This document shows, piece after piece, positions 59,977-60,907 of a stretch of 64,000 nucleotides of DNA. Under the pieces are notes generated by a model. That model did no database searches. It saw only the letters and a list, made by a program, of their open reading frames with translations, and was not told the DNA's origin. The position numbers and the translations under genes were made by a program. Source of the DNA: Sphingorhabdus wooponensis (GTDB taxonomy: Bacteria; Pseudomonadota; Alphaproteobacteria; Sphingomonadales; Sphingomonadaceae); NCBI RefSeq assembly GCF_003933235.1, contig NZ_RWJI01000001.1, positions 936,001 through 1,000,000 of the forward strand. Reading direction: 5' to 3'. The stretch's first letter is position 1. Each line of letters begins with the position of its first letter.

Positions 59977-60296
59977 GTGCGGACACTCATCCATAATTTC
60001 TGCATAGATTGTTCTTAGGTTCCGCCATGAAGACTGGCAAGTATTGTTGCAGGCGTGCAACAGCATTTGAAAATAAGAAGATAGGCTTAGGGTTCCATTT
60101 GCAAAGCCAATCGCAAAAGCAGATGTAGATTTGGAATACATCGTTAGCTCAATAAGGCCGATGGTTCAGGGAGAAAATCAGACCTGTCGGTGGGGACCGG
60201 CAGAGGACTGAAAACCAACCATGCGCTGATAAAGCTGCATAGCGAGGCCGTTCGGACATTCCGGGCGGCCTTGTTTTTGAAGCAGTCGATTTTTTG

Positions 60297-60326
60297 CTCT
60301 TGTATTTTTTTCGGGCCATCCCATCT
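60297..60326 (+). promoter_or_regulatory. Heat-shock (sigma32/RpoH) promoter of hsp20
   Basis: CTCTTGTA (60297-60304) and TCCCATCT (60319-60326), 14 bases apart, fit the RpoH consensus (CTTGAA, 13-17 bases, CCCCATNT) with one mismatch in each main element. Transcription would begin near 60333, giving a leader of about 90 bases before the hsp20 start. Confidence 0.65.
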
Positions 60327-60334
60327 TGCCAGTC

Positions 60335-60418
60335 GGAGGCCACAAGGCTCCAAAACGAACATGCTGGCCGCTGCATCAGCGGGGTTGGCGACGAACCAAA
60401 TTGCTTGATGGAGAATTT
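60335..60418 (+). ncRNA. ROSE-like RNA thermometer in the hsp20 leader
   Basis: Three consecutive hairpins precede hsp20. Hairpin 1 is GGAGGCC-ACAA-GGCTCC (60335-60351, one bulged G). Hairpin 2 is CCGCTG-CAT-CAGCGG (60368-60382), extendable with G-U pairs to 60363-60389. Hairpin 3 pairs AAATT-G-CTT (60398-60406) with GAG-AATTT (60411-60418), with G60403 bulged, so that the GGAG ribosome binding site (60410-60413) is largely buried. The TTGCT anti-ribosome-binding element with a bulged G is the hallmark of ROSE elements. Confidence 0.72.
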
Positions 60419-60421
60419 GTA

Positions 60422-60907
60422 ATGACACGTTTTGATTTTACACCTTATCGCCGGAACACTGTTGGCTTTGACCGCCTATTTGAGCTGCTCGAAACCACGG
60501 GACGTGCCGCACAAAATGAAAACTACCCCCCATTCAATATCGAACGCACCGGTGAAAATGACTATAAGGTCACTGTCGCCGTGGCTGGATTCAAGATGGA
60601 TGAAATTGATATCGTTGCGCAGCAAAATTTGCTGATTGTCACCGGCAGCAAGCAAGGCGAAAGCAATGATAATCGTGATTTCCTGCACATGGGCATCGCA
60701 AACCGGAACTTCGAACGCCGCTTTCAACTTGCCGACCATATTCATGTCACCGACGCAGACATGGCCGACGGCCTTTTGATCATCAACCTCGTGCGTGAAG
60801 TGCCTGAAGCGTTAAAACCGCGCAAAATTGCGATTGGTGCGAATTTAACGCCAACGGTGATTGAGCATGATGCTGCGCCCAAGAAAAAAGGGCCGCAAGC
60901 GGTTTAA
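60422..60907 (+). CDS. Small heat shock protein, Hsp20/IbpA family
   Basis: This 161-residue alpha-crystallin-type chaperone binds unfolding proteins and holds them for refolding. The alpha-crystallin domain starts near residue 38 (FNIERTGENDYKVTVAVAGF) and ends with DGLLIINLVREVPE; an Arg-rich head (MTRFDFTPYRRNTVGFDRLF) and a Lys/Ala tail flank it. Length and domain layout match the IbpA group typical of alphaproteobacteria. The ATG at 60422 follows GGAG by eight bases; the longer open frame is not supported. It is transcribed alone, converging with pyrG over a hairpin. Control appears to be both transcriptional (sigma32) and by RNA thermometer. Confidence 0.94.
   Translation: MTRFDFTPYRRNTVGFDRLFELLETTGRAAQNENYPPFNIERTGENDYKVTVAVAGFKMDEIDIVAQQNLLIVTGSKQGESNDNRDFLHMGIANRNFERRFQLADHIHVTDADMADGLLIINLVREVPEALKPRKIAIGANLTPTVIEHDAAPKKKGPQAV

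Follow-up and report, generated by a model that had tools for sequence, protein, structure and literature searches.

The hsp20 locus

The hsp20 locus raises the question whether one small heat-shock gene is held under heat control twice, by an RpoH-type promoter and by an RNA thermometer of the ROSE type in the leader of its mRNA. The founding member of the ROSE class lies before Bradyrhizobium hspA. Having followed the locus through a window of 64 kb (the whole stretch of DNA that was analysed, 64,000 nucleotides) and through related genomes, we hold it to be highly probable that the leader is a ROSE-type thermometer on a gene transcribed by RpoH. The identification as ROSE is very probably correct and draws on a match to the Rfam family RF00435, conservation controls, covariation and the ranking of the leader by covariance model R3; we infer that translation of hsp20 is induced by heat. 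The features discussed are:

60299..60305, + strand: -35 element CTTGTAT of an RpoH-type promoter, read from the sequence; the promoter is kept in relatives
60320..60326, + strand: -10 element CCCATCT after a spacer of 17, with 6/7 letters of CYTATNT
60331..60421, + strand: predicted 5′ leader of ~91 nt, its start site placed from the promoter; matched by RF00435 and R3
60335..60351, + strand: hairpin 1, small and GC-rich (centroid fold, close-group pairing)
60363..60389, + strand: hairpin 2, 11 bp with one bulged G (fold, close-group pairing)
60397..60419, + strand: terminal hairpin, the predicted thermosensor, 9 bp with a bulged G at 60403 (fold, covariation)
60401..60405, + strand: anti-Shine-Dalgarno ROSE motif UUGCU; U(U/C)GCU is found in 78/78 leaders
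60410..60413, + strand: Shine-Dalgarno (SD) sequence GGAG, 8 nt before the ATG, with GAG paired and the first G in the loop
60422..60907, + strand: hsp20, small heat-shock protein of 161 aa (PF00011, E 1.3e-17)

The ATG of hsp20 is read from the sequence at 60422, and the leader matched by RF00435 ends where the PF00011 protein starts, which makes it the leader of a small heat-shock gene. The genome comprises 2.18 Mb in 8 contigs, and a profile search of it at E ≤ 0.001 gave hsp20 at 60422 as the only HSP20 match. RpoH is encoded in the genome as well (TIGR02392, 359.7 bits against a curated cut-off of 323.1). By protein similarity, the nearest named relatives of the encoded Hsp20 belong to Sphingorhabdus.

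For comparison we used leaders of relatives picked solely by protein similarity (51 loci and the 30 best of 149 family genomes, own genome included). After the duplicates L053–L055 and L075 were dropped, 78 distinct leaders were left, the one in the window included. The close group consists of 27 leaders (the window and 26 loci) whose Hsp20 proteins are 82–95% identical, and the distant group of 51 leaders with Hsp20 proteins 45–77% identical.

An RpoH-type promoter kept in relatives

Upstream of hsp20, CTTG (60299–60302) is followed by 17 nt and then by CCCATCT (60320–60326). The alphaproteobacterial RpoH consensus is CTTG-N17-CYTAT-T, and the locus thus has the CTTG, the distance of ~17 nt and the CYTAT-T type of -10 element that mark such a promoter. 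The preliminary description had called the promoter near-consensus. This holds for the -10 element and the spacing but not in full for the -35 element, which reads CTTGTAT in the window and CTTGAAA in 38 of the 51 distant leaders; in the close group, CTTGAAA is seen in 4/27. RpoH would read this promoter to give an hsp20 mRNA starting near 60331.

All 78 distinct hsp20 leaders have a CTTG between -200 and -70, and a spacing of 17 was the best one in 65 of them. The best -10 score was at least 6/7 in 65/78 leaders (shuffles: mean 2.0, maximum 7) and at least 5/7 in 74/78 (mean 12.4, maximum 20), and a score of at least 5 combined with a spacing of 17 was found in 61/78 (mean 2.5, maximum 7). 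The best site in the remaining 17/78 is poorer or otherwise spaced, with a few plainly stray CTTG (e.g., in L022, L023 and L063).

Taken in this one genome, the promoter and hairpin signals are weak. The 64-kb window holds 11 sites with CTTG, a spacing of 16–18 and at least 6/7 of the -10 letters (4 on the + strand and 7 on the − strand), of which 7 have a spacing of 17 as compared to 3.08 in a Markov control, and a looser RpoH pattern was not enriched genome-wide (8 matches, the reversed pattern giving 9). A strict ROSE-hairpin rule yielded 2 sites in the window where 0.65 were expected (maximum 3). Such unremarkable counts would suit a chance match, in which promoter-like and hairpin-like letters happen to stand together in an AT-rich stretch. 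We give this reading next to no credence, as the conservation controls, the covariation and the model ranking all speak against it and 78/78 leaders carry the motif. It is conservation that gives the promoter claim its weight, and conservation in relatives, not counting in a single genome, that makes the case for the promoter and the ROSE hairpin together.

The groES gene of the same genome served as an internal control and has CTTGACC-N17-CCTATCT upstream. In this region (L111, G000:C1:1240750-1241025) the RpoH-type promoter is followed by TTAGCACTC-N9-GAGTGCTAA, which we take to be the CIRCE operator of HrcA. With this combination, groESL may be under another kind of double heat control.

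Anatomy of the leader

According to the preliminary description, a leader of about 90 bases would form three hairpins, the last of which places GGAG in a stem with a TTGCT strand that carries a bulged G. The predicted fold is in good agreement with this. The leader is ~91 nt long and folds into three hairpins, and in the terminal one, CAAAUU-(G)-CUU-gaug-GAG-AAUUUG, GAG pairs with CUU and G 60403 is bulged. As far as the available part of a review goes, ROSE elements have two to four hairpins (PMC4166951); here, three were predicted and counted, the last one holding the SD sequence. The U(U/C)GCU strand is predicted to pair imperfectly with the SD sequence and to leave a G bulged, as in ROSE, and compensatory changes occur in this hairpin in distant relatives (see below). 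At most 45 nt from the start codon, T[TC]GCT was found in 78/78 leaders (shuffles: mean 9.8, maximum 16), as UUGCU in 72 and as UCGCU in 6. A FourU thermometer was considered and rejected, because the strand facing the SD sequence is UUGCUU and has no run of four U.

The stability of the hsp20 leader was not unusual against shuffles (z −0.76) and is uninformative. For hairpin 1, the minimum-energy fold uses another register than the centroid. The minimum-energy fold also pairs CAAAACG in the leader (60351–60357) with CGTTTTG near the beginning of hsp20 (60428–60434) and CAT (60360–60362) with the start codon, a long-range pairing that encloses hairpins 2 and 3. As the AAAACG stretch is absent in L022, L023, L025 and L026, the CAAAACG/CGTTTTG pairing is probably not essential.

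Covariance-model searches

A search with the Rfam ROSE model had been proposed as a check on the leader. RF00435 was the sole Rfam family to match the leader at E ≤ 10, and it aligned end to end (model 1–94 on 60333–60422). The check came out in favor of ROSE as regards this full-length match, but the score of 22.9 bits (E 0.12 over 4227 families) stayed below the gathering cut-off of 45 bits. No family reached its gathering score in the Rfam scan of the window, and RF00435 found nothing at E ≤ 0.1 when run against the whole of the own genome. Nineteen relatives scanned jointly showed ROSE at E ≤ 1 only in L048, with 41.5 bits, which is likewise under the cut-off.

Of the 149 family genomes, 52 have a match to RF00435 at E ≤ 0.1, and in 16 the match passes the cut-off. 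The own genome belongs to neither set. Among the 65 RF00435 matches listed, 59 lie on the same strand as an HSP20 match and end −10 to +15 nt from its start; the other 6 had no such HSP20 neighbor among the matches compared. Matches of 26 to 69 bits are seen at the same place before other hsp20 genes of the family, and the leader in the window stands at the low end of a score series that reaches 69 bits. Across the class, 6/142 genomes matched at E ≤ 0.01, none of them above the cut-off and no control genome among them, which makes the RF00435 model a narrow one. The Rfam cut-off for ROSE is too strict here, since it is passed by none of the 20 leaders scanned against it (the window and 19 relatives) and by 16/149 genomes, yet 78/78 leaders carry the motif.

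Models were also built from the leaders themselves. Model R1 was built from 51 leaders, among them L033 and the Sphingorhabdus-named L027, L031 and L032; the L033 leader is identical to that of the same-genus genome G068. R1 found the leader in the window with 36.2 bits in the own genome, the next match having 17.0. Because R1 contained leaders of the same-genus type, it was rebuilt without L027–L035 and L050 as R3, which comprises 41 distant leaders, none from a Sphingorhabdus-named record or from a genome called same-genus by the tool. In the 2.18 Mb of the own genome, R3 still ranked the hsp20 leader (60325–60426) best, with 29.6 bits (E 0.003), ahead of the next match with 15.7 bits (E 2.6). 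In the 37 sources outside its training (the window plus 26 close and 10 nearer loci), R3 matched the hsp20 leader once in every source and nothing else at E ≤ 1, which makes 37 matches, with 19.0 to 55.4 bits. Across the order, R1 matched 30/99 genomes at E ≤ 0.1, 17/26 in the own family (some of which were in the training) and 13/73 in others, the best score among these 13 being 29.8 bits. As to other thermometers in the own genome, the next four R1 matches have 17.0 to 11.7 bits, and no obvious leader was seen in the stretches inspected.

Pairing in the hairpins

In the close group, 96.8% of cells in all hairpins pair, as compared to at most 52.6% in slid versions. The two helices of hairpin 1 have 99.0% and 98.1% of cells paired, with one pair changed on both sides, and hairpin 2 has 92.2% over 9 counted pairs, with 3 pairs changed on both sides, giving 4 such pairs in the two hairpins. 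The terminal hairpin shows no covariation in this group because its 9 pairs never vary there: they are invariant in the 26 distinct rows (of 27).

Compensatory changes in related genomes, which the preliminary description had named as a check, were found in the terminal hairpin of the distant relatives. The pair counts in the alignments used for this (A2 and A5) cover the terminal hairpin alone. Over the 51 distant rows, of which 50 are distinct, 95.3% of cells are paired (shuffle mean 89.0, reached in 0/500), 4 pairs are changed on both sides (mean 1.6, reached in 3/500) and 21 cells are changed on both sides (mean 5.9, reached in 0/500), although related rows can exceed shuffles even without structure. 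The number of pair types was reached by 35/500 shuffles. Slid versions did not exceed 62.7% paired cells, 3 such pairs and 14 such cells. The outermost pair holds 16 of the 21 cells changed on both sides. When the ten nearer rows were removed, which left 41 (40 of them distinct), the values were 95.3%, 4 pairs and 16 cells, and slid versions reached no more than 62.5%, with 3 pairs and 13 cells. RNAalifold recovered just 3 pairs on the mixed alignment A2, since hairpins 1 and 2 cannot be aligned across the distant rows. As the compensatory changes show, what is kept in the terminal hairpin is pairing and not letters alone. It had been said that ROSE would be hard to uphold if the model did not match and the terminal hairpin were unconserved; RF00435 matches with 22.9 bits, and the 9 pairs are present in 26/26 distinct close rows.

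Temperature and stem energies

Below heat-shock temperature, the terminal hairpin would hold the GAG of the SD sequence against the CUU of UUGCUU, a pairing that is predicted by the fold and supported by the covariation. This stem would be kept marginal by its bulged G and by weak A-U and U-G pairs, so that warming should open it and give the ribosome access. Hairpins 1 and 2 are probably stable scaffolds that aid the folding of the last one. With both layers in place, the chaperone would be off until heat and off again on cooling.

The computed minimum free energy of the isolated terminal hairpin at 37°C is −4.4 kcal/mol and falls to −8.2 once the bulged G is taken out, in line with a bulge that keeps the stem weak. 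A melting calculation on the leader gave no switch by 45°C, the SD sequence being mostly paired at all temperatures. The mean unpaired fraction of GGAG in the partition function was 0.28 at 10°C, 0.33 at 45°C and 0.36 at 50°C, and most of it comes from the first G, which is located in the loop.

The absence of computed melting by 45°C would also suit a leader hairpin that represses without sensing temperature, with Hsp20 itself or another protein bound to it until titrated by unfolded proteins. E. coli IbpA represses itself through its 5′ UTR, according to the available part of PMC10474464, and a terminal hairpin that never varies within the close group would suit a binding site as well. We nevertheless regard repression by a protein in place of a thermometer as unlikely, because the compensatory changes in distant relatives point to pairing that is kept, not letters alone, and because the naked leader from Pseudomonas opens with heat in probing, as reported in the available text of PMC3669281. 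Repression by a protein could act together with a thermometer. Still less probable, to the point of being very unlikely, is that heat control by RpoH at transcription alone matters and the hairpins are ordinary leader structure or stabilizers of the mRNA. While a leader stability that is ordinary for its composition (z −0.76) and the lack of computed melting by 45°C are compatible with this, the conserved item is specifically the anti-SD/SD pairing with its bulged G, in 78/78 leaders and with compensatory changes.

The close group differs from the distant leaders in where the weak pair lies. In 27/27 close rows, U-A is the pair below the bulged G and U-G the one that closes the loop. The 51 distant rows have U-G with C-G in 33, U-A with C-G in 11 and other combinations in 7, and the close-group combination in 0; the U-G wobble is found below the bulged G in 34/51 of them, whereas the close rows have it at the loop-closing pair. 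In the close group, the weak pair has shifted to the other side of the bulge. On the backbone of the window, this change raises the energy of the stem, computed for 37°C, from −5.3 to −3.4 kcal/mol, a cost of 1.9 relative to the commonest distant type. The stem energies average −3.3 in the close group and −2.95 in the distant rows (median −3.5), and as this median matches the close-group level, there is no overall difference in energy between the groups. A re-tuned ROSE thermometer in the close freshwater relatives, with its opening temperature shifted towards that of cool water, is a tentative and rather doubtful idea.

Relation to known thermometers

The hsp20 leader shares with the ROSE family RF00435 its place before a small heat-shock gene, the chain of hairpins and a U(U/C)GCU strand with a bulged G facing the SD sequence, and differs in scoring 22.9 of the 45 bits required. 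Control by sigma32 and ROSE in two layers is already known, and the leader is an additional example and not a new kind of system. For Pseudomonas ibpA, both the sigma32 promoter and the ROSE element have been shown by experiment (PMC3669281, available part). According to the same text, the last hairpin of those thermometers has the anti-SD and SD strands as it does here, but they comprise two hairpins in 61–62 nt as compared to the three predicted in ~91 nt here. Deletion of the bulged G lowers induction in the thermometers of P. aeruginosa ibpA (PMC3669281) and P. stuartii oppF (PMC11342760), as stated in the accessible portions of these papers. The ROSE-like elements before ABC transporter genes, as far as they are described in the latter portion, also have U(U/C)GCU with a bulged G facing the SD sequence, but they precede other genes and were found via a template based on Pseudomonas (PMC11342760).

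The excerpt of the review at hand calls ROSE probably the most abundant class of thermometers, always found with small heat-shock genes, and credits Waldminghaus et al. (2005) with a list of over 40 elements of the ROSE type from alpha- and gammaproteobacteria (PMC4166951). That set may include some from Sphingomonadales. In the literature searched, largely without subscription journals, we found no ROSE element or RNA thermometer of Sphingomonadales, and in the available text of the paper on Sphingomonas melonis Hsp17 (PMC10434288) the term appears in the reference list only. Very probably, the Sphingomonadales, and this freshwater lineage in particular, join the groups that control a small heat-shock gene by both a sigma factor and an RNA thermometer. 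The 78 leaders can serve directly as the seed of a wider ROSE model and can be used to ask whether thermometers follow the temperature of the habitat.

Other conserved elements near hsp20

A conserved structured RNA is encoded on the + strand at 60156–60278 of the window and ends just upstream of the hsp20 promoter. It has an intrinsic terminator, GGCCGTTCGGA..TCCGGGCGGCC TTGTTTTT, and its column identity averages 88% across the window and the 26 close loci. Small indels argue against a reading frame, and the predicted fold has 34 pairs, 2 of them changed on both sides. No Rfam family was found for it (best 12.3 bits, E 3.8), and the 6S candidate of the genome sits elsewhere. Among the 149 family genomes, model R2 of this RNA scored 143 bits in G137, 125 in the own genome (G000) and at most 34.8 elsewhere, and had no match at E ≤ 0.01 in the same-genus G068. 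On these sequences, the element is probably an undescribed sRNA of this sub-lineage.

Between a divergent lolC-like gene and this RNA lies a second conserved block (60030–60115), with the letters CTGGCAAG.ATTGTTGCAG..GCAACAGC and TTGCAAA, which could hold the promoters of the lolC-like gene or of the RNA. Downstream of hsp20 in L027 (2017–2121, − strand), a match to RF02100 tfoR was seen with 41.7 of 70 bits, below threshold, at E 5.3e-7.
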